Origin: Zoopage sp. CT-All
Lineage: Eukaryota > Zoopagomycota > Zoopagomycetes > Zoopagales > Zoopagaceae
Reading direction: 5' to 3'
Length of the DNA: 20,632 nt
Assembly: GCA_004114245.1 (NCBI GenBank)
Contig: QZWS01000159.1
Coordinates: forward strand, 1-20,632
The notes beneath the pieces are model-generated. The model was not told the DNA's origin. It saw only the letters and a list, made by a program, of their open reading frames with translations, and ran no database searches. Position 1 is the stretch's first letter. Every line of letters starts with the position of its first letter. Shown here piece by piece: positions 1,284 to 17,022 of the stretch. A program made the translations under genes and the position numbers.

Positions 1284-2536
1284 TTAAGCACCATTCTGGA
1301 GGAGTGCTGTAGCTAGATACTCCTCCAGTGTTGGGGGAGTGCACTGAAACCTACTAGCAATCTGGCCCCCATACAAGCAGTTATGAATGTTGGTAAGAAT
1401 TGCCGCCACCTTGTACTCCTTTCCCACTGGGGACTGCCAGATTCGCTGATGGCACTTAAGATTCAACTTAGTCCACATACTAGGCATTATTAATACACTA
1501 TTTAAAGGGAGCTAGAGGGCAAACTGACTTGGTAATTCGTCCAAATGACCATTCCACCACCACACATTTTGATGACATTTCCCGGTTCTCTGCAGCCACC
1601 AGGACATTCTGGATTGCTGCACGGACATTTGGACCACGTACACAATTCATACGAAAGCCGTAGGCCGGGTCCCCATAGAGGTGGAGGTCCTGGTTGTCTG
1701 GGAGATATCCCTCAAGCAACTCCACTAGACCAGACCTTCTCAACATCCAAGCATCATGATGCCTAGCTGCATAAGGCCCACCCAAAGCCACAATCGTCCC
1801 ATCCGGAGTAACAACGCCTTGGAACTTCATCGCATGGAGGTGCTTGAAGCCACTGTACATGGCCCTCTGGTGGAACTTTGGCCTGGCAATTGGTCTGACT
1901 GTCCCATCAATGAAACCAAAAACGCCCTCAGCCCCATCCACAGGTCTCCCTTGAGCTGCCACGCATTGAGCATACTCCTGTAGCTTTCCAGGAGTCAGAC
2001 GCCGCGTATCAAAGTCTAGGAGGCAGCCAAACTGGCTGTAGAGAAGCTCCAACATTGCTTGAGCAGCTCTGGACAAAGTGCTGTAATCCCTGTGGAAAAT
2101 GCTGCTCAAGTCATCCAACCGCAGCGGCCAGGCCAGACGAGCAAGAAGAATGCAGAATGCCTCGATTCCAGTGATAACCACACGATTCTCCAGGGTGAGG
2201 AGGGGAGGAAGATGCAAAGCCTCAAAAACAAGGTGCAAATCTGCAGTACTATGAAATCTATTGTATTTTAGCCCTAGCCCCCAAACCAATCATTCTAATG
2301 ACATACCGGAACCTTATACGAACACTTGCATCATCCCAGACACTTGGGTCATCGATATTGAAGGCCCCAGGGGAGAAAAGGGAACCATAAACTCTGGGAC
2401 GTGGGACGCGTTTTTTCGCCTCCAAATGGGTCTGCAGCTCTAGGAGCAAGTTTGCAATGTTGGTAGTAGGCCTAGCATCATCTGCGATTGTGTTGTGGAG
2501 TGTGTAGAGGAGTTTGAGGGGGAGTTGGATGTGCAT
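1284..2536 (-). CDS. PIF/Harbinger DDE transposase, three exons
   Basis: Proposed exons on the minus strand are 2536-2307, 2257-1529 and 1479-1284, a protein of 384 residues. Introns 2306-2258 (donor GTATGT) and 1528-1480 (donor GTCAGT) are both 49 nt. Splicing the second restores the family motif FGRITNMW, which reads on into PVGKEYKVAAILTN, a typical Harbinger C-terminus. Catalytic residues expected for the DDE_Tnp_4 family are visible: D194 in FIDGT, D273 in YGDPAYG and E312 in VVEWSFG. The helical N-terminal region (residues 77-150, with LLARLAWPLRLDDLSSIF) is the usual DNA-binding part. I chose ATG 2536 because the open frame upstream lacks an ATG and runs into the subterminal repeats. 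No stop or frameshift interrupts the spliced frame, so it appears intact. Confidence 0.9.
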
Positions 2537-5502: not shown

Positions 5503-5633
5503 CTGCCCAATCCTTAGTACAAAACAGCGCTGCAGTTCGCCTGCATGTTGTGCTCCATGAACGCCAGCGAAGCTCATCGACTGTCCTTTTTCTCGCCGAC
5601 CGCCCACATCGCCAGCACGCCACCGCGATCATC

Positions 5634-6240
5634 ATGACGTCCTCCGCCCAACCCACGCACCCCGAAGTTCTCTGGGCCCAGCGTGGCGACCACGTCACGG
5701 TCGTTATCAATATCCCCGACCTCGACGCCTCCTCCATGGCGCTCGAGCTCAAGCCGGCGTCCATGTCCTTCACCGGCCACACCACCACCCCCGAGCAGAC
5801 CCAGTACCACTTCTGTGTCGACTTCTTCGAGGAAATTGATCTAGCCGCGTCGAAATACGCGCCGCAGGGCCGTGGAATTCTGTGCATGTTGCAGAAGAAG
5901 AATGGCGGGTACTGGCCGCGGCTGACCAAGGAAAAGGTCAAGCTGCACTGGCTGCGCACGGATTTCTCGCGCTGGAGAGATGAGGATGACGAAGAAGAAG
6001 CGGCGGTGGAGGAGGCAGATCCGTATGCTGGGATGGACTTCTCGCAGTTTGGATCCATGGGTGGCTTCGACGGTGGCCTGACAGGTGGGCAGTTTGATGC
6101 CGACAAGCTGGCATTCAATGAAGTGGAGGATGAGGATGAGGATGAGGATGGTGAGGGTGAAACGTTGGATATGAACGCTACGGTAAGTGCTCTTGCTCCA
6201 TCAAAGTAGTGGCATGCTGATGTGCCACATGTAGGATTAA
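5634..6240 (+). CDS. SBA1: p23/Sba1 family Hsp90 co-chaperone, two exons
   Basis: Exon 1 is 5634-6182; a 52-nt intron (6183-6234, donor GTAAGT, branch CTGAT) leaves a final exon of only two codons (GAT TAA), for 184 residues in total. Residues about 8-112 are a CS domain (PEVLWAQRGDHVTVVINIPD, then FCVDFFEEIDLAASKY). The p23 signature region GYWPRLTKEKVKLHWLRTDF, then SRW, lies near residues 98-120. The tail is highly acidic with FSQFGSMGGFDGG and a Glu/Asp run, as in fungal Sba1/Wos2. Known role: binds ATP-bound Hsp90 dimers, slows ATP hydrolysis and stabilises clients. The open frame extends upstream to 5550, but the first ATG is 5634, at the head of the conserved region. It is divergent from PCC1 and converges on the TFIIIC gene across 144 bp. 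Confidence 0.92.
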
Positions 6241-6384: not shown

Positions 6385-9274
6385 CTACACCGCACAGTAA
6401 AATTCGCTGCCGCAACGAGGACACTTCTCTGCGTCCAACAACAGCTGGTTAACAAGAACGCCAGCGGGAGTATTTCCGAGTCCGTCGTTGCCCACGTCCA
6501 GAGACGATAACCGCCATGACTCCGATCGCGGAGCATCGTGAGCTCGGAGGCCGCATTCTGCGCAGGTACGAGCTCTAGGAGACGCTAATAGTAGCTGGGT
6601 CACTGCACAGCGATCTATTCACATGCTTAGATAGGATTGTGCAATGATGGGCAATTCTTCACCCCATATGTGTCCGTCGGAACACTCAACATTCCCACCA
6701 ACATCAAGAAGGTTTACCCAGCCCATAATGTCGCCAGAGCTCTCCTGCTCCAGACCGATGTGGGTTGAATCCGCATGGATGACAGCACTGCAAGCAGGAC
6801 ACCGCTCTTTCTCGGCAACGACCGATAGCAAGGCAGAGCTCGATTTTGCCTCATTGAGCCAACCGTCGAGAATGTGTCGCTCATTGCGACAAGGATCGCT
6901 GGGAATAGAGCGAAAGCGGTCCGACCATCTAGACACAGAAATGACATCTGCAGCTATGAAATGTGAGAATAGAGCGGTTGGAGTATTGTCCTACTGGTAA
7001 TCTCGTCGAAACCTGCATGCTTGACAAGGCTAGAAAGGCGTTTTGCCCAGTGCCGCAGGAGCAGGGGAGCGACTTGCTGCATAGCTCGGCTGATGTGATT
7101 TCTTTGCTCATCATTGAGACATAACTTCTACACATGATGTTAATCGCAACATTGCAACACCGCACAATACCGTAGCAGTCCAATTTAAAAAGTACATGGA
7201 TTGGGCCGCTTGTACTAACCTAGGAGAATGCTCAATGGTCACTAACTGGTGCATGGCACATTACCGAGTGGCATAGCTATCGGCAAAACTGAGCCGCAAG
7301 CCATCAGTGAATCCTTGAATGCCCGCTGAGTCCGCCAGCTGAATATACGCATGAAGTAGATCCCATATGACGTATTTTGCTGGGGCACAGCCACTTGTAG
7401 CCTTCAGAGCACTTCGAACGCCGCAGGATATTGCGCAACTTTTCGCCTCGTTCCCTCTAATGGGCTTTTCTATACTCTCTCCTGCATGTGCATTCGCCAT
7501 GAATGAGATCGATACGTGCGCAGCATCTTCGTTGGCTGTTCGGTAATGTAGCTCCACAGTTGGCTTTAACCTGGACAATTGAGCTCATGGAAAATGGAGC
7601 ATACTGTACCAGTAGACCGTCGCAACGCATAGCTTGTTGCTGCTTACCGCTGCACCAAGAAAGCATGCGCTTCTTTGAAAAATCCCAGCGCTGATGCTTC
7701 CGTTGGTAATATCTTGTTTCTCAGACTCTTTGAGATCCTGTAAGATCACGTGGCGCGTACGTGTCCGGACGTCTGCGCTTATAATAGCACTTGGTATGAC
7801 TTGTTGACTGCTAGTAGGGTTTATGGTGCGAAGGGTCGGTCCACTTGGACTGTGAATATCCAGTTGCATGTCGTGAATGGAACCGTCGTAGCTGTAGGCA
7901 AGTATGCTTGCTGAAGAATGACTAGTATCCACTGCGCATGGGTGTCCCTTGGTGAGAGCTAGAATTGTGATGACTACATGGAAGGCAGTAAAATTGCGCT
8001 ACCATAAATGGGTAGGCCAAAAGGGAGCTGGAGGTGGGCAAGACACGGTCGAATTTCTTTGCTAGCTTTCGATCGAGCATCCCAAGCATAGATGTCGGTG
8101 CCTTTTGCAATGATGAAATAGCCGGGCGATTTGTCGAGACCATCGACCCAGCAAACAGCAGTGATAGGTCGAGCATCTGCCGATATTAGCACTGACGTGT
8201 CCGAACACTCGACGCGTATGCCCCCTTTGCGAAGCTCGTCCATATAAATGCAAATTTCGTGAAGCCGCACGCATCCATTGCAATCAGCGCTGAGAATCCA
8301 TGCACTCTGAGAATCAGAAGCTGTCGACGACCATGCCGACCAGACTAGGAAATCGATGGGCGCCAAATCATGCACATTTGATCCACGAAAATCAGATTGA
8401 GTGTAGAGTTCCTCGACGTGAGCACTATCAGCTGGATCGGTCTTGCGCTCCAATGTTCGGCTACGCTTGCTTCAGTGGCTCCAAGATTAGTAGTATGATT
8501 TACGCTACGATTCGCAATCGACCATTTCGCTGACCCAAAACGAGCAGCGATTGTCCTCGCACACGCGAATTCAATTCCTTGAAAAACGGCTTGGACCAGC
8601 TAAAAGCTACAAAGCGTCCGTTCCTGAGCCAAGAGCAGGACGCATGCCACCGTCACCTGTGTAATAGTCTGACAAGCAACCGCTATCTGGAAAAATTGAA
8701 TCAATCTAGGGTCGTGTTATTCTACGTGCAAGAGCATTGTACTGGTTTACCGCTCGCCAAAGGCCGAGGTCAGGGTGCTTGAATGGCTCAAGAATAAGAA
8801 CGTCCCCGCCTGTGGTAATAGTTGTGAGTAGAACACCACCGAAATTCGAGCATCCTGTTGGAGACCAGCCTGACTTTAGAAATCCCTCAGGACCGCGCAA
8901 GGCCTCGCCTATCAGATTATCAGTGGAGCGAAGAGCGAGGCAGTGTACATACTATTTGCATTACGGACTTTATTCAGGCGACGTTGCTTTGCTGCGGGCT
9001 CTTCCTCGTGTCCCACCGCTCCCACGCAATCGTTATATAACAAGACATGCTGTTTGAGAAAGTATTGGCGCCGAGTACAGGTCACGGTGGCTAAGGGAGC
9101 GATCGAGGGAGTCTAGGCAAATCGCCGACGAGCATCAGCTCCGGTCATGAATGGTTAAATCGGTGCTTATACCAAAATATGCAGCGAATTAAACGTGCAA
9201 ACAAGCAGCTGATTATCTTCGGACCACGTCAAGCTTCCGGGGACATCGGGTCGGGATCGAATCTCAGCATGCAT
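6385..9274 (-). CDS. TFIIIC subunit with N-terminal beta-propeller and C-terminal zinc finger (GTF3C4/Sfc9 type), 12 exons
   Basis: Exons (minus): 9274-9173, 9112-8953, 8908-8751, 8705-8674, 8623-8504, 8460-8003, 7958-7610, 7570-7265, 7219-7132, 7076-6995, 6953-6623, 6574-6385. They total 2376 nt, 791 residues, with every phase matching and a terminal TAG. Introns are 39-60 nt. The N-terminal two thirds is a WD-like propeller (GSLTWSEDNQLLVCTFNSLH at residue 13; later FVAFSWSKPFF, GQRNGRLRI, SILAYSYDGSIHDM). It closes with a TFIIIC-delta motif, KLCVATVYWLKPTVELHYRT. The C-terminus is a putative TFIIIC zinc-finger region with C670/C673, C709, H713, C733/C736 and C780/C783. TFIIIC binds the A/B boxes of tRNA genes and recruits TFIIIB. 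The exon of 32 nt and the intron after exon 9 are least certain; a 31-nt alternative at the latter would add residues. The start codon lies only 24 bp from a Copia insertion. Confidence 0.85.
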
Positions 9275-9297
9275 TGGCAGTGTCACGTGTCGACGAT

Positions 9298-9302
9298 GTC
9301 TG
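9298..9302 (+). repeat. Target-site duplication GTCTG (3' LTR side of Copia)
   Basis: GTCTG lies immediately before the LTR at 9303 and is repeated exactly at 13609-13613 after the other LTR. Five bp is the usual duplication size for Copia integrases. Confidence 0.95.
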
Positions 9303-9406
9303 TGAAGGATAATGTGGCAGTAGGTCAGCGTGAAAAGTAAAAGATTCAGAGACCAGTCACCCCATGCCTGCCTCCTTTCACCGCACCCTAGGTCCTACTC
9401 CCAACA
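9303..9406 (-). repeat. 3' LTR of the Copia element
   Basis: 104 bp; in element orientation it begins TGTTGGGAGT and ends TTATCCTTCA. It is identical base for base to 13505-13608. It contains the last nine codons and the TGA stop of the Gag-Pol frame. It is unusually short for an LTR. Confidence 0.96.
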
Positions 9407-12400
9407 CTTCCGCTCGGTGGAAGAGGCCAATCTTACTTCTAAACTTCTCTTGCTTATTCCGTCCCAGACCCTTGGTAAACATATCCGCAGCCATCTCCTC
9501 TGTCGGACAAGACACCAATTCGATTTCTGCTGAAGCTACTCTTTCGCGTAGGAAATGATATCGAATGTCTATATGCTTGGCTCGGTGGTGGCTAGCTTCG
9601 TTTTGTGCTAGTTTAATAGCACCTTGATTATCTTCCCAAATTTTTGTTGCTTTTCTTTGGGGGAATCCAATCTCGGCCAGGAGCGCTCGGATCCAGATTG
9701 CCTCAGATGCTGCCTCAGCTGCACTCATGTATTCTGCTTCCGTTGATGATAACGCCACCGTTGCTTGCTTGCGGCACCTCCAGGCTATGGCTGCACCTCC
9801 GAGGAGAAAGCAAAAGCCTGTGATTGACTTTCTTGCGTCGAGATCATTCGCCCAATCTGCGTCTGCATATCCACGCGCATCAAGCGTTTGATTCTCCCCT
9901 CCGAACACCAATCCCACATCCTCTGTGGCCTTCAGATAGCGTATAATTTGTTTCACAGCTATCCAGTGGGATTCGCGCGGTTCTTTCAGGTACTTGGATA
10001 CTGTGCTGACCGCGAATGCAATGTCCGGCCGAGTTGTTACCATTGCATGCATCACCATTCCCACAGCCTTTCGGTACATTGTCCTGTCCTTGGCTGGTGG
10101 ATCATTCTTTTGTGTGTTGCTCAGTCTCAAACCAGGGGCAAATGGTGTTGCGCTCGGGTTCACATCTTCCATCTTCAGCGTCGATAGGATTTCTCTTACG
10201 TATCGTTTCTGCGTCAGCGTCAGAATCTTCCGCTTCCTATCGCGCTTGACTTCCATGCCTAGCATCATGTTCACCTCGCCGAGATCTTTGATGTCGTATG
10301 CCAAAGCAATCTCTCCCTTCACATATGCCACGGCTTCCGCTGATTTCGACACCACAATCATGTCGTCAACGTAAAGGCCCACCAGCACTAGTTCTCCTTC
10401 GAGCTGCATCGCGAAAATACTGTGATCGTTTGCTAGTGTTTGCAGTCCTATCCGCTCAAAAGTAGCTTTGATCTCATGGTACCATTCACGCGGGGATTGT
10501 CGCAGGCCGTAGAGGGCTTTCCGTAGACGCCAGACATTGTTCGGCTGATCTACGCTTTCAAAACATTCCGCTGGATATGCGAAGACCTTTTCTTTCAGGG
10601 TGGCATTGAGGAACGCGGACTTCACATCAAGTTGGTGTATCTCCATATCTTCCACTGCCGCGATCGCCAGTAGTATCCGTAGGGATTTGTACTTCAATGT
10701 TGGTGCGAATGTTTCTTTGAAGTCTATCCCTTCGATCTGCTCAAATCCGCGGACACAGATTCTCGCTTTCCATTCAACTGGTATGCCGGCTTCATCCCTC
10801 TTTAGCGCAAATACCCACTTGAGACTCAGTGGGCGTTTTCCTTCTGTGGCATCTGGATCAACACTCTCGTATGTACCTTTCCGATCCAGCGAGGTCATTT
10901 CCTCAACCATCGCCGTGTAGATATCATCCCAGTGTGGGCTTGCTCGGGCCTGATCCATTGTCAAAGGTACATCGGGGTCCAGTAGTGATTCTGCCACGAA
11001 TGCTGTTTCGTAATCTTGTAGGTGCGCTGGTGGTCGTCGCACGCGGGTAGATAACTGTCTCCTGTCGTCTTCCTGTTCTTCCGCTTGCTCATCATTCGGC
11101 TCTTCGGGTGGCTGGACTACAGGGGCAAGTTCGATGATTGGTTCTGGCTCATGGAGTATCTCTGCCACTTCATCCGGTGTTGATGCTACGGTTTCTGCTG
11201 GGTTGGTTTCGCGTTCGCCTTCTTCTGCCTGCGGCTCGCATTCCACCTCCACCGTTTGTCCCTCCATGAATACACAGTCTCGGCTGACATTCAACTTCTT
11301 TGATACTGGGTCATAGATCCGATAAGCTTTGACCCCTTGTACAAAGCCCATGAACAACACTGGTTTCGATCGTACGTCCAATTTCTTGCGTCCCGGTGAC
11401 AGATCCAGTGCGTAGATCTTTGCACCAAACCGTCTAATCTCACTAACATTTGGTCGCTTGCCGTGATATGCTTCATAGGGTGTTGTCCCTGGTAGTGCTC
11501 GGGTGGTTACTCTATTCCTAATATGCGCCGCGTAGTGGACTGCCTCAGCCCAGAATTCCGTTGGTAGCTGCGCGTCTAGGAGAATTGCCCGTATCATCTC
11601 GCCAAGAGTTCTGTTCATCCGTTCGGCAACTCCATTCTGTTGCGGCGTGTACGGAACGGTCAACTGCTGTGCAATCCCGTGCTCACTTAAATGTGCCTTG
11701 AACGCGCTGCTGATGTATTCTCCACCATTGTCTGTTCTGAACGCCTTGATTTTCCTGCCAGTTTCGAGCTCGGCCGCTGCTCTGAACTGCCGGAATGTGT
11801 CGAACACATCGCTCTTCTCTCGGACGGTATACACTCGCATATATCTTGTTGCATCGTCTATGAAAGTCACGAAGTAACGCGTCCCGCCCAGTGACTTTAC
11901 TTGCATCGGTCCGCATACGTCCGAGTGCACCAGCTCAAGTGGTTCCTTAGCCCGACTTGTCGAAACAGGGAACGGCGCTCGCGTCATTTTCGTCCTGAGA
12001 CATACATCGCAGTTGACCTGCGCATCTGGGTTGTCCACCACTAGGCCCTCAATCAGGCCCTTGTCCGCCAGTTCCCGGATTGCATTCGTATTGACATGAC
12101 CCAGACGCCGATGCCACATTTCTAATGTCGAAGTTGCCACCAGCGCATTGTAGGCGGTGTGCTCTGTCCATGCTTCGTTGACCAGCATGTAGATATAATT
12201 CGATCCATGTCCTACCGCAACTGTCTTGCCATCCTTCCTGATATAGCATACATCCGGGTCAGGATCGGGAAACCTCAGCGTGAATCCGCTATGCCGCAGG
12301 CGACCCAGAGAGAGTAGCGTCCGCTTGAATCCCGGAACAAACAGTACTCCGAGGATCTCCAGGAGCTCCACGGTTCCATTGATACGTGTATAGATCCGCA

Positions 12401-13433
12401 AGTCGCCGCATCCTACCGCTTTGTACCTGTATTCACCGTCCGCGAATCCCACCTGTACAGGGGCAATCTCTTGGTAATTGAACAACAGTCCTTTATTGTC
12501 CGTCATGTGTGCACTGCTCCCCGTGTCGGCCACGAAATTACTGTTGTCTGATTGCTTCGTCCATGGAGTCGACGATGCGGCGTATGCCACTATATCGGTG
12601 TTGTGGGCGGCCTCTCTTGGTTTCTTCGTCGGACAGTTATACTGCATGTGCCCTTTCTTCTTGCACACATGACAAGTGATTGTCGGACATCTCGCGCGGA
12701 CGTGCCCGACCTGGTTGCATTTGTAACACCGTTGCTCATCGTCCGTGCCAGTCGGGTTTGATCCGCCGCGCCTGAACGCTGCATGCGCCTCCTCGACTCT
12801 GTTCTGTTCGTCACGAAACTTGATCTTGTCTTCGTACTGTAGGAGGGCGGACGATGCGTTCTCAATTGTGAGCGTGCCTACGATCTGCTGCATCTCGAGA
12901 TGCTCAACCATCTTCATGAATGGCGATCCCTCGAGTCCGATCAGCACTCCCGCCAACAGCTCGCTCCGGTCTTCTTTGGCTCCGCCGACCATATCTGCCC
13001 ACAACCGCTCTCGCACTGCCAGGTACTCTTCCATTTTCTGTCCGGGTGGCATTCTGTATGCATAAAAACGCGAGCGGGCTAGCATCCGGCGTGCCTCCGT
13101 CTCTCGGCCCATGATCACCCGTATCTTCTCCCAGATCAGCTTAGCTGCGTCTATCCCGTTTACCATTGGTCTAACGCGATCGCTTAGAGAAGACTTGATC
13201 ATGTGCGCGGCCTTGGCATTCTTACGCACGTCTTCAGCTGATGGTCCTGACGTCAACATTATCTGCACTGTTCCGTCGGTCGTCTCTGCCTCACGTTCGA
13301 GGACGTTAGTTTCCACATATTGCCAGACGTTGGCCGCGATCAGCGCGGTCCTCATCGAGTCGGCCCAGCTCGTCCAGTCGTCGCGGAGTCGGGGCAGGCC
13401 CTGCACGTTCAAGCCTGATTCAAGGCTATTCAT
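9378..13433 (-). CDS. Copia Gag-Pol polyprotein, 1351 residues
   Basis: One frame from ATG 13433 to a TGA within the 3' LTR. Order of parts: a Gag region (about 10-220) of the UBN2/retrotransposon-gag type; two CCHC zinc knuckles (CYKCNQVGHVRARC at 236-249 and CHVCKKKGHMQYNC at 254-267); aspartic protease DTGS at 303-306; the HHCC integrase zinc-binding segment (H441/H445, C475/C478); the integrase core with D504, D568 (DNGGEY) and E604; reverse transcriptase about 860-1080 with YVDD at 1021-1024; and RNase H with YADADW near 1189 and STEAEYM near 1230. Gag and Pol share one frame without frameshift or stop, so the Gag:Pol ratio must be set by another route such as proteolysis or splicing. 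All key catalytic residues are present. The last residues are encoded by the LTR. Confidence 0.96.
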   Translation of the reverse strand: MNSLESGLNVQGLPRLRDDWTSWADSMRTALIAANVWQYVETNVLEREAETTDGTVQIMLTSGPSAEDVRKNAKAAHMIKSSLSDRVRPMVNGIDAAKLIWEKIRVIMGRETEARRMLARSRFYAYRMPPGQKMEEYLAVRERLWADMVGGAKEDRSELLAGVLIGLEGSPFMKMVEHLEMQQIVGTLTIENASSALLQYEDKIKFRDEQNRVEEAHAAFRRGGSNPTGTDDEQRCYKCNQVGHVRARCPTITCHVCKKKGHMQYNCPTKKPREAAHNTDIVAYAASSTPWTKQSDNSNFVADTGSSAHMTDNKGLLFNYQEIAPVQVGFADGEYRYKAVGCGDLRIYTRINGTVELLEILGVLFVPGFKRTLLSLGRLRHSGFTLRFPDPDPDVCYIRKDGKTVAVGHGSNYIYMLVNEAWTEHTAYNALVATSTLEMWHRRLGHVNTNAIRELADKGLIEGLVVDNPDAQVNCDVCLRTKMTRAPFPVSTSRAKEPLELVHSDVCGPMQVKSLGGTRYFVTFIDDATRYMRVYTVREKSDVFDTFRQFRAAAELETGRKIKAFRTDNGGEYISSAFKAHLSEHGIAQQLTVPYTPQQNGVAERMNRTLGEMIRAILLDAQLPTEFWAEAVHYAAHIRNRVTTRALPGTTPYEAYHGKRPNVSEIRRFGAKIYALDLSPGRKKLDVRSKPVLFMGFVQGVKAYRIYDPVSKKLNVSRDCVFMEGQTVEVECEPQAEEGERETNPAETVASTPDEVAEILHEPEPIIELAPVVQPPEEPNDEQAEEQEDDRRQLSTRVRRPPAHLQDYETAFVAESLLDPDVPLTMDQARASPHWDDIYTAMVEEMTSLDRKGTYESVDPDATEGKRPLSLKWVFALKRDEAGIPVEWKARICVRGFEQIEGIDFKETFAPTLKYKSLRILLAIAAVEDMEIHQLDVKSAFLNATLKEKVFAYPAECFESVDQPNNVWRLRKALYGLRQSPREWYHEIKATFERIGLQTLANDHSIFAMQLEGELVLVGLYVDDMIVVSKSAEAVAYVKGEIALAYDIKDLGEVNMMLGMEVKRDRKRKILTLTQKRYVREILSTLKMEDVNPSATPFAPGLRLSNTQKNDPPAKDRTMYRKAVGMVMHAMVTTRPDIAFAVSTVSKYLKEPRESHWIAVKQIIRYLKATEDVGLVFGGENQTLDARGYADADWANDLDARKSITGFCFLLGGAAIAWRCRKQATVALSSTEAEYMSAAEAASEAIWIRALLAEIGFPQRKATKIWEDNQGAIKLAQNEASHHRAKHIDIRYHFLRERVASAEIELVSCPTEEMAADMFTKGLGRNKQEKFRSKIGLFHRAEVLGVGPRVR

Positions 13434-13436
13434 ACC

Positions 13437-13491
13437 AGTCGGGGTATCAGTCGGGGTCGGTCGGGTCGGTCGGTTCAGTCGGTTAAAGTGT
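13437..13491. repeat. Short tandem GTCGG-type repeats in the Copia leader
   Basis: Imperfect repeats of gtcgggg/gtcggtcggg fill most of the 71-nt leader between the 5' LTR and the Gag start. Function unknown; they may be a packaging signal or simple replication slippage. Confidence 0.6.
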
Positions 13492-13504
13492 GGCGCTGAT
13501 AACG
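13485..13504 (-). promoter_or_regulatory. Candidate primer-binding site of the Copia element
   Basis: Directly after the 5' LTR, in element orientation, the leader starts CGTTATCAGCGCC. Many Copia elements have a TTATCAGC-type sequence here that pairs with an internal tRNA fragment (anticodon stem-loop) rather than the tRNA 3' end. The complement, GCGCTGATAA, has the look of an anticodon loop, possibly isoleucine. The position is strong; the primer identity is inference. Confidence 0.45.
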
Positions 13505-13608
13505 TGAAGGATAATGTGGCAGTAGGTCAGCGTGAAAAGTAAAAGATTCAGAGACCAGTCACCCCATGCCTGCCTCCTTTCACCGCACCCTAGGTCCTAC
13601 TCCCAACA
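13505..13608 (-). repeat. 5' LTR of the Copia element
   Basis: Identical 104-bp copy of 9303-9406. As the 5' LTR it should hold the promoter and transcript start, though no obvious TATA box is present in it. Confidence 0.96.
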
Positions 13609-13613
13609 GTCTG
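13609..13613 (+). repeat. Target-site duplication GTCTG (5' LTR side of Copia)
   Basis: Exact repeat of 9298-9302, marking the far edge of the insertion. Confidence 0.95.
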
Positions 13614-13861
13614 GTGACTCCAAATGCGTAGAGCTAGATCAATACTATTGGATATGCAAGCATATCTCATCAGGATAGCAGACTGTAGAATACTACTGGC
13701 AGTACCTTGGACGCAACTTTCCCTTTGTTCAGAAGGCAGAGCAAGTAGTTCGAGGGGGGTGTGTATGGCGAGGCAGCGCGGGAGACTCCTTGGCTGGCCT
13801 TGCCGCTTTCACCAAGACAACATCAATAAAGTGCTTAGCATTAGGTCAAGCTTATTGCATT
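13614..13861 (-). promoter_or_regulatory. Displaced upstream region of the TFIIIC gene
   Basis: Removing the Copia element joins this 248-bp stretch to the TFIIIC start codon, restoring an intergenic distance of about 270 bp to the STRIP stop codon. It should contain the original TFIIIC promoter and the STRIP 3' end. No coding frame is supported. It is now about 4.3 kb from the TFIIIC start. Confidence 0.6.
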
Positions 13862-16800
13862 TCATGGCACTTCGGTGGTGAATCTCGCCAGTTGAGCGTC
13901 TTCGACTTCGTCGCGACAGGGAGAATGCAGTGCTGATGCGTTGGCTTCGCCTGAAGGTGAAGCTGGAGTGCTGCTCTCCTCGACGAGTACAATTCCAGCA
14001 TCCCAATCCATCTCTACACCATCTTCAGGATGCGCAGCATATACCTCTGCGGCCAGCCAGCTATTCATATCGTTCATAAAGGTTAGGTCAAAATCCAGGA
14101 TATCCTTTTTGGGCATCAAGTCCCATTCAATAAAGGCACTGTTCCGTGTCGATCCTGATTCCGAGCCAGGCAGAATAGAGGCGTGGGAAATCATCGACTC
14201 TCGTTTCGAATGCGCACACTTGACATCATGCGTGATTTCCATCGTGGACGAATGCAGGCCCTTGTCGAAATTTCGCGCATTGTACCACTCGATCAGCTCG
14301 CGCATGTTGACTTCTTGATCCTGTCGATGTCAGGAACACAAGCACTTGCAATTGGACATACCACCGAAGCCTGGTCGTCGATCTCGGGCTCACCCCCGGC
14401 TAGCCAGTCATCCCGAAGCTCTTGTCGACAATGATAATAAATGCCAGTGATAATCTTCATGTTGGCTTGCATCGTGTCAGCTACGTCGTCGTGCAGGAAC
14501 CATCTTACCGCTTCTCCATTTCCGTCCCGTGAATGGTACCACGTTTTTGCAGATTTTATAAACATACTGATGGACAAGTGGTAGCTCCAGCTTGAGCATT
14601 CGCTTTAGAACAGCCTGGCGGGAATAATTAATTCGGAAAACAAATAGCAAAGCATACTGGCGCCTTGTACTGCATGAGTAGAAATATCCGATGGCCGCGG
14701 CGCTTGATGAGCATCTGCAGGACTCGAAGGTAGTTTGCCATGGAAAATACATTTCTCCAAGCGAGGGGCGCCGGATGCGCTTTTGCTCGATCAGCAATGC
14801 TCTCATCGTCGTCATACTCGTCTGAGCTGGCATCGCTGAGCGGAATGCGCGAACTCAGCGAAGGATGGCCGTGAGCATTGAATGAGTCGAAATCGGGATC
14901 CAAATCACTATTGCGGTCTGGTCCTGTGCAGTACGCAAGAAAGCTAGTCCAGCATCAGCCAGTGATGTAGAATCCATCTGGGATACTTGAGCGCAGGGAC
15001 TTCATTGAATGCCGTGGCCCATGCAAGGGTATCCTGCTGGCTGAAAAGTTTCAGCAGCAGCGGAATGATGTTGGCATCAACTAGCATGTGGCCAAAGTAT
15101 TCGAAGCCGATTGCATCTATCTCGATGTAAATATATGCAACCGGTACGAAGGGCATACTCTCGCTCTTCAAATGCTTCGCCAGAAGCACAAGCACACCAG
15201 ACACGGCCTTCCACATAATTTCCTTGTGACGAGCAGCATCGATTTCTTCAATAGTTTGCGGTCGCTTGGACTCGTCCGTATCGGAGCCGTCTGTTGGAGG
15301 GTGAGCGGTCGTTCAGCTATGAAGGAAACATGCCCGAGCGATGTGGCAGCGCCACTTGAGACATTGTAGCGATCAGGATTTTGGCCAGGAAGAGGACAGC
15401 GGACGAAAGATGCTCATGAATGGACCGCTACCATATCATCAGCGCAATGCAGCATGATGCGATAAGCATACATAAAAGAGTTCAAAATCCGTGCCTGGTC
15501 GACTCTCCTTTCCAGAGTCAGGTATCAAGCCCCGCTCGATGGCGTCGCGACGCACCATCACATTCCATATCTGTCTACGCAATCCAGACTCGTGTATCGA
15601 ATCGCACATGACGCAGGCTGCTTCTACCAATGCTGCCGGAACACCGTCGTTGGCAAGCCCCTCATTTTCAGCCTCGAAAGGAAATATCATGGGTGGCGGT
15701 AAATTCGTATTATTTTGATTTCCGGCGTTCGAAAGACTCATCAGGCCAAGCCCGAAGCCTTGACGACGGCGCACAGGAATAGTGTCCGTGAGGGCATTCG
15801 ATGGAATATGTTTTGTCGAAAACTTTGGGTGGGATGCGGGCATGCGAGGAGATGGCGGCGGTGGGGGTTCGTAGAATGGGTATTTGTCGTCGTATTCCTC
15901 GCACAGACGAGCATAGTCAGCGAGTGTCGACTTGCAGCCGGTGTGCTCTAGAAGGCGTATTGGAGAGAGAAGAATTCGACGGCTCATACCGTGCGTTGGC
16001 AGACCAAGCTCCAGTCTCAATCGAAGACGACTTTCTTTTGCGCTGTCAACACCGCCAAAGGCAACTAGGACGGACTTCCAGAGCGTGAGCAGCAGCTTCT
16101 TTACTGGGAATCCCTTTGTGCTGCGCTCCATGAGTTTGGACACCATCTCAAACAGCAGAGAGGGCAAGGAGATATCCGCGGAGACTAAAAATGCTGCAAT
16201 GAGCACTGCAATCAGAGATTGATGGCAACGTACGAACTTGAGTGGAAAATTGCTGACAATCGGGCTCCAGGCGCTGCGTTTCCAGTAAATAGTACACGAG
16301 CGTCAGAAGCAACTCAATCTCGCCACATGCCCTTTCTGCCGCAACATGTGACGCGGACGACAGGCCCTTGCGCGTGGGCGCCGAGAGCACTGCCAGCGCA
16401 GCGGCGAGCGACTGCACATACAAATGCAACGCATCAGCATCGCGAAGCATTCTGTTGCATCGCCGAATGCGATCAACTTGCATGGCTTCCAGCGTCCCTG
16501 TGGCGTCTCCATTGGTGGATTCCTTCCATACCCCTTGGGCGATGTAAATCAGCTTTCGCGCTGTAATGACGCGTGTGACTTGTTGTGGATCATCCAGTCG
16601 ACTCAGTAGCTCCACTATATGCTCTCTCTGATCTTTCTCGGACCGAGACAGCCATGCTGAGCAACATCAGGCACCAAAACGAGGCAGCGAAGGGTACCCT
16701 CTTCGGTCTTGTAAAAGAGCGCGGCATGCTCCCGCCATTGCCTCGCCTCGGCATATGAATGAAACTCGTCCAGCTCCTGCGCCAATGCATCTGAATCAGC

Positions 16801-17022
16801 GTAGTCGAAGTTCAGGCGCTGGGATCCGGCGGCATCGCTTACACCGGCGGTATCGCGTGGGAGGGTGTTGAGGACAATATCGCGCAGCTGGCCCAAGGTG
16901 AGCGAGTCACGGGTCTCTCCGGGCGCAAGGCCGATTCCGTCCGACATGTTCTGTGGAATGCCAGTGGATGCGCGCGGATCCTGCGCGGTGGAGATGCGTA
17001 GCTGGCGCACGTTGTTTGTCAT
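13862..17022 (-). CDS. FAR11: STRIP/Far11 subunit of the STRIPAK complex, nine exons
   Basis: Exons (minus): 17022-16698, 16656-16234, 16193-15472, 15427-15334, 15290-14987, 14943-14658, 14614-14509, 14465-14362, 14320-13862. They total 940 residues, with phases consistent throughout. The N-terminal N1221 region shows LNFDYADSDALAQELDEFHS, then WLSRSEKDQREHIVELLSRL and GFPVKKLLLTLWKSVL. The C-terminal DUF3402-type region shows FEYFGHMLVDANIIPLLLKL, then VPFTGRKWRSANMKIITGIY followed by YHCRQELRDDW, and RELIEWYNARNF. STRIP proteins scaffold striatin, PP2A and GCK kinases; fungal STRIPAK controls cell fusion, septation and mating signals. Intron 4 (15333-15291) appears to be GC-AG (donor G|GCATGT); no GT donor gives the right phase. 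Intron 2 has three in-phase acceptors (28, 40 or 49 nt); I used 40 nt. Confidence 0.88.
15291..15333 (-). other. GC-AG intron in the STRIP gene
   Basis: A 43-nt intron starting GCATGT after a G and ending CCAACAG, with CTGAA near the branch position. Splicing joins ALPHRS to DGSDTDESKRPQTIEEIDAA in phase 1, giving the family's expected EEID-ARH region. Every GT in the preceding frame falls in the wrong phase or leads to a stop. Confidence 0.7.

Follow-up and report, generated by a model that had tools for sequence, protein, structure and literature searches.

A Copia-type retrotransposon next to the start codon of a TFIIIC90 gene in Zoopage sp. CT-All, and a possible inosine footprint in its half-tRNA primer-binding site

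The described elements closest to the retrotransposon analysed here are Copia-type elements primed by half-tRNAs (copia, Ty5, fungal Copia and Helenus), in which, according to the text portions of PMC10886601, the primer-binding site is complementary to the anticodon arm of a tRNA and ends at nt 39. In the same portions, anticodon-loop priming is given as known for Drosophila copia and Ty5, tRNA-Ile-AAT is placed among the anticodon-loop primers of the fungal Helenus elements, and a tRNA-Ile anticodon-loop site is assigned to Copia-18_PHord (PMC10886601). The present element has a site of this kind and differs from these relatives by a C opposite A34 and by a similarity to the tRNA that continues towards nt 10.

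With regard to the position of the element beside a gene, two fungal systems are close. Insertions of Tf1 and Tf2 of Schizosaccharomyces pombe lie near start codons, as does the insertion reported here; those of Tf1 cluster there, and the element is described in passages of PMC7175516 as supplying control sequences and compensating for the disruption of a promoter. Tf1 is a Ty3/gypsy-type element with a systematic preference for promoters, whereas the single site of the present element gives no evidence of targeting. In Zymoseptoria tritici, transposable elements upstream of the Zmr1 gene alter its control, and the abstract of PMC6047131 reports that insertions upstream of the promoter lowered expression. 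The likeness lies in an element upstream of a fungal gene; the Zmr1 insertions stand upstream of the promoter, whereas the present one stands next to the ATG.

The window, that is, the whole stretch of DNA analysed (20,632 nucleotides), is contig C407 of an assembly of 8.6 Mb in 419 contigs. Its genes are eukaryotic, with TFIIIC, N1221/DUF3402, CS-domain and ubiquitin-conjugating frames, and the features of the locus are listed in Table 1. The frame ending at 13862 has no Pfam match of its own and would be the end of the N1221/DUF3402 gene. We take these two Pfam families to be of the STRIP1/Far11 type.

Table 1. Coordinates of features in the window (strand as written; position 1 is the first nucleotide)
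Feature	Position	Strand	Remarks
Downstream gene, CS domain	5550-6209		Convergent to TFIIIC90, 175 bp apart
TFIIIC90 (GTF3C4-type) gene	6385..9274	-	ATG at 9274, 11 exons, 787 aa
Leader between element and ATG	9275..9302	-	23 bp plus one 5-bp duplication copy
Target site duplication GTCTG	9298..9302	.	Copy adjoining 3' LTR
Complete Copia-type LTR retrotransposon	9303-13608	-	4306 bp; LTRs, duplication, Pfam domains
3' LTR	9303..9406	-	104 bp; directly upstream of TFIIIC90 ATG
gag-pol	9378..13433	-	Single open frame, 1351 aa; Copia domains and motifs
Primer-binding site	13473..13503	-	13-nt core 13491-13503; tRNA similarity at 27/31 positions in all
5' LTR	13505..13608	-	104 bp; identical to 3' LTR
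Target site duplication GTCTG	13609..13613	.	Copy adjoining 5' LTR
Displaced upstream intergenic sequence	13614..13861	-	Presumed promoter region
Upstream gene, N1221 and DUF3402 exons	13862..17022	-	Same strand as TFIIIC90

On the element strand, both LTRs start with TG and end with CA, and the pair is bounded by the target site duplication, as is usual for a Copia LTR retrotransposon; a first-pass LTR length of 105 bp had taken in one chance base. The frame contains gag, two CCHC zinc knuckles, and protease, integrase, RT and RNase H motifs, with Pfam matches to Retrotran_gag_2, gag_pre-integrs, rve (residues 496-597) and RVT_2 (862-1098), so that the order protease, integrase, RT, RNase H is found with Copia-type domains. 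The motifs DTGSS at 303, YVDD at 1021 and TEAEY at 1231 presumably represent protease, RT and RNase H, respectively. The element is thus similar to Ty1/Copia elements (Pseudoviridae) in its single-frame Gag-PR-IN-RT-RNaseH arrangement, its 5-bp duplication and its TG..CA LTRs, and differs from them in the very short LTRs (104 bp). In itself it is a Copia element of ordinary make, with a primer-binding site of the half-tRNA kind. In the polypurine-tract position before the 3' LTR there is just a short, interrupted purine-rich stretch (GAGCGGAAG). The gag-pol stop lies inside the 3' LTR, and the last codons of the polyprotein are therefore encoded by the LTR (9378-9406).

Relatives of the gag-pol protein are 32-48% identical among the 120 listed of 3918 matches, and the best match among solved structures is the integrase chain 7z0h_W, which we take to be Ty1 integrase bound to Pol III. 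Since no tRNA gene was found in the window by ARAGORN and no Rfam match at the gathering score, Ty1-like targeting to a Pol III gene is without support at this insertion site.

The exon model of the TFIIIC90 gene was set by hand, as splice modelling with a simple codon score gave poor models; all ten introns are 39-119 nt long, and the weakest part of the model is intron 3 (119 nt). The spliced product contains both domains of the TFIIIC90/GTF3C4 family, the TFIIIC_delta propeller (PF12657, E 8.2e-16, 58.7 bits against a cut-off of 27) and zf-TFIIIC (PF12660, E 7.1e-9, 36.1 bits against a cut-off of 23), the latter forming its C-terminal end. The match to the solved GTF3C4 chain 8cli_B is weak, with a whole-sequence E of 5.6e-4 and no single stretch significant alone. 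A search with the PF12660 family gave no match anywhere and is uninformative, its controls being likewise unmatched, and no TFIIIC90 homologue at E <= 0.001 was obtained among the 7994 candidates scored from a large protein set. When the flanks of the element are joined, no in-frame ATG stands between the ATG at 9274 and the in-frame stop that precedes it. With a full frame, the zinc finger and no sign of decay, the gene looks intact as judged from its sequence, but so little time may have passed since the insertion that decay would not yet be visible.

The preliminary description of this DNA had placed a Copia element in the sense of the gene between the TFIIIC start codon and whatever lay upstream, with the 3' LTR directly upstream of the ATG. 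Domains, LTRs, duplication and joined flanks agree on this placement, and the 3' LTR at 9303-9406 does directly precede the ATG at 9274. Two details of that description need correction. The duplication had been put 24 bp from the ATG, and is separated from it by 23 bases (9275-9297), or by 28 with one copy of the duplication included; the empty site had been written as 13614 joined to 9297, which drops the duplication, and it should be 13614 joined to 9302 (or 13609 to 9297) with one GTCTG kept. The pre-insertion intergenic space obtained by this joining is 276 bp, and the insertion point lies 28 bp before the ATG, in the same orientation as the gene. The remaining 248 bp are now beyond the element, 4.3 kb away from TFIIIC90. 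In view of so short an intergenic space, we infer that the displaced flank, upstream of the insertion point, contained the native promoter; this flank presumably also held the 3' end of the upstream gene. The earlier statement that the promoter is now 4.3 kb off therefore holds for the upstream region as displaced sequence, while the position of the promoter itself is presumed from the 276-bp space. In the displaced flank, a 7-bp perfect inverted repeat, GATATGC-TT-GCATATC, is present at 13651-13666 beside a CCAAT; its pattern (GATATGCNNGCATATC) has one other exact match in the assembly and three more with one mismatch, and no regulon claim is made.

The identity of the two LTRs suggests that the integration was recent, and over just 104 bp it dates the event loosely, up to about 2.8% divergence being compatible at 95%. 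In the assembly, the window element is the sole full-length match to the gag-pol protein among the at least 21 matches listed, and the other 20 (again a lower bound) are partial and 24-58% identical. An LTR query found 15 places, two of which are the LTRs of the element itself. Duplications were checked at six remnant loci, which represent 7 of the 13 other places and leave out C323, C262 and four places on C11. At four of the six, perfect 5-bp duplications flank solo LTRs; the other two are partial matches without duplication. A Copia LTR on C78 (L008 389-607) is interrupted by some 97 bases that do not belong to it, with a GAGCA duplication still flanking it.

We propose that the TFIIIC90 gene, looking intact beside a recent same-sense Copia insertion, is still expressed, most likely by way of the 3' LTR, and we give this proposal about as much belief as doubt. 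The 3' LTR has the sequence of the 5' LTR, which should start the RNA of the element itself, and transcripts started in it would run through the 28-bp leader to the TFIIIC90 ATG. Since the 3' LTR has no in-frame upstream ATG and just one two-codon upstream frame, an mRNA started in it could be translated from 9274. This upstream frame (Met-Gly-stop, out of frame, ATG at 9365) would lower translation only for transcripts that begin ahead of it. As Tf1 is reported to bring control sequences with it, impairment of TFIIIC90 is not the default expectation; the lower expression found for Zmr1 in Zymoseptoria, though with insertions upstream of the promoter, counts against the LTR-driven proposal. 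We regard the insertion as real and as ordinary in kind, the gene that it adjoins being what is unusual. With the gene of a core factor of RNA polymerase III cut off from its upstream region by an element, the locus provides a natural experiment on whether a housekeeping gene can be carried by a 104-bp LTR.

The strongest rival to an LTR-driven TFIIIC90, though a rather unlikely one, is that the source was diploid, dikaryotic or mixed, that an allele with the empty site supplies TFIIIC90, and that the assembly kept the inserted allele. Collapsed assemblies keep one haplotype and this one may hide an empty allele; identical LTRs also suit a young insertion that is possibly unfixed. Against it, no second TFIIIC90 copy was found by protein search of the 8.6-Mb assembly, where the only match was at the window locus, and each of the two insertion flanks was likewise found once, without a second copy. 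We consider it improbable that the native promoter drives the gene from 4.3 kb by reading through the element, or that expression is simply weak: the same sense of the element and the intact upstream flank would allow a host transcript to run in, but that transcript would have to cross a complete element, with its long frame and presumably a 3' end formation of its own, before it came to the ATG. That the entire element is spliced out as an intron of 4.3 kb is also disfavoured by the 39-119 nt of the modelled introns.

A chimeric transcript was considered as well, in which a 61-nt intron from 9360 in the 3' LTR to the CAG of the duplication at 9300 would fuse a short LTR-coded N-terminus to TFIIIC90. 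The branch-point-like CTGAC, pyrimidine stretch and CAG stand in the right order, the upstream stop would be removed and, by eye, the spliced frame would be open into the ATG. The donor GTGACT is weak, and an equal or better intron was obtained in 632 of 2000 shuffles of the same stretch, with site scores taken from 9 of the 10 modelled TFIIIC90 introns; being no better than shuffled sequence, this LTR-made intron was rejected as very improbable. Least credible of all is the possibility, named in the preliminary description as one that would overturn the insertion, that an artefact of assembly or amplification joined the element to TFIIIC90. The assembly is fragmented (419 contigs), but the 5-bp duplication is clean, the LTR ends agree with those of separately placed solo LTRs, and the duplications at four of the six remnant loci argue against an artefact.

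The primer-binding site of the element, GTTATCAGCGCCA, begins one base past the 5' LTR. In its core, 12 of 13 bases are complementary to nt 39-27 of tRNA-Ile(AAU), with tRNA nucleotides numbered by our reading of the cloverleaf, and the exception is a C opposite A34. The site is thus internal to the tRNA and lies near nt 39, as in half-tRNA-primed Copia elements. The opposite strand of the tRNA-Ile(AAU) gene (L032 1466-1541) reads GTTATTAGCGCCA over nt 39-27, and the sole difference between the two sequences is at the position opposite A34. In eukaryotes, A34 of tRNAs is edited to inosine. The tRNA set of this assembly has A34 anticodons for Ile, Thr, Val, Ala, Arg, Leu and Pro.

When the assembly was scanned with the core allowing either base, five places were found, which are the tRNA gene with A and four sites with G, including the window element; a backward-read control had two chance matches. 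A longer pattern with any base opposite 34 kept the tRNA gene and three of the four G sites, and its control was without matches. The other three sites with C opposite A34 are in L031, L033 and L034. Two of them, on C119 and C373, are closely followed by Copia gag frames; the third stands at the beginning of C232, its interior being off the contig, and marks a candidate element only. All four sites have CA one base before them. The stretches of up to 129 bases preceding the four sites share short local similarity only, with scores of 13 to 20 points that were reached in 13 to 448 of 500 shuffles; for the pairs window-C373 and C119-C373, fewer than 20 of 500 shuffles reach the score, and remote kinship of these preceding sequences is a possible reading. 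The four sites may share an ancestor and do not count as four independent events. In L012, the region behind the C373 pol yielded no copy of the sequence that precedes the site.

Beyond the core, only the window element remains similar to the tRNA, as far as about nt 12-10; there 15 of 18 further positions agree, a value reached in 0 of 20000 mononucleotide shuffles of its leader, a lenient control as the leader is repetitive; the corresponding values at the other three sites are 4/18, 3/18 and 3/12. In a half-tRNA scan of 13 Copia loci, several of them overlapping, the only matches in elements were the tRNA-Ile sites on C119 and C373, and the tRNA-Cys matches were that tRNA gene itself. The scan set consisted of 37 distinct entries from 51 tRNA reads, with intron-bearing tRNAs unspliced.

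We suggest, with belief and reserve in balance, that the four sites were served by the 5' half of tRNA-Ile after A34 had been converted to inosine, the C in the DNA recording both editing and cleavage. The C would pair with, and be copied from, the inosine at 34, and the tRNA-like stretch towards nt 10 in the window element looks like an almost complete copy of the half-tRNA taken up by that element. Another possible primer is an exactly matching tRNA-Ile(GAU): ARAGORN gave no second tRNA-Ile among all the tRNA places found (at least 50), one weak place (L083) yielding no tRNA, but there may be more such places, and the mitochondrial genome may be absent from the assembly.

Half-tRNA-Ile priming is already known, and the inosine footprint is unreported as far as our literature search reaches, which found no mention joining inosine and half-tRNA primer-binding sites. 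The word inosine is absent from the main text of PMC10886601, where the sites themselves are shown in figures, and within the sections available of a tRNA-modification review it is named once, in another setting (PMC13191261; PMC5371799). The footprint is a more general lead than the insertion. If the inosine reading is true, a genome sequence by itself shows whether a tRNA is edited and cleaved, and if C opposite 34 holds across half-tRNA-primed elements, retrotransposon DNA would report tRNA editing and cleavage in uncultured organisms.

Some minor observations may be added. The leader from the primer-binding site to the gag ATG (13434-13503) contains CCGACTG/CCGACC repeated several times and resembles the complement of the tRNA-Ile D arm. 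A DDE_Tnp_4 transposase frame, which we assume to be of the PIF/Harbinger type, is located near other frames in the window (1498-2289 and 252-1166). A relative of the frame at 252-680 is present on C133 (L004), where it is broken by a solo LTR of the same Copia family as the window element.
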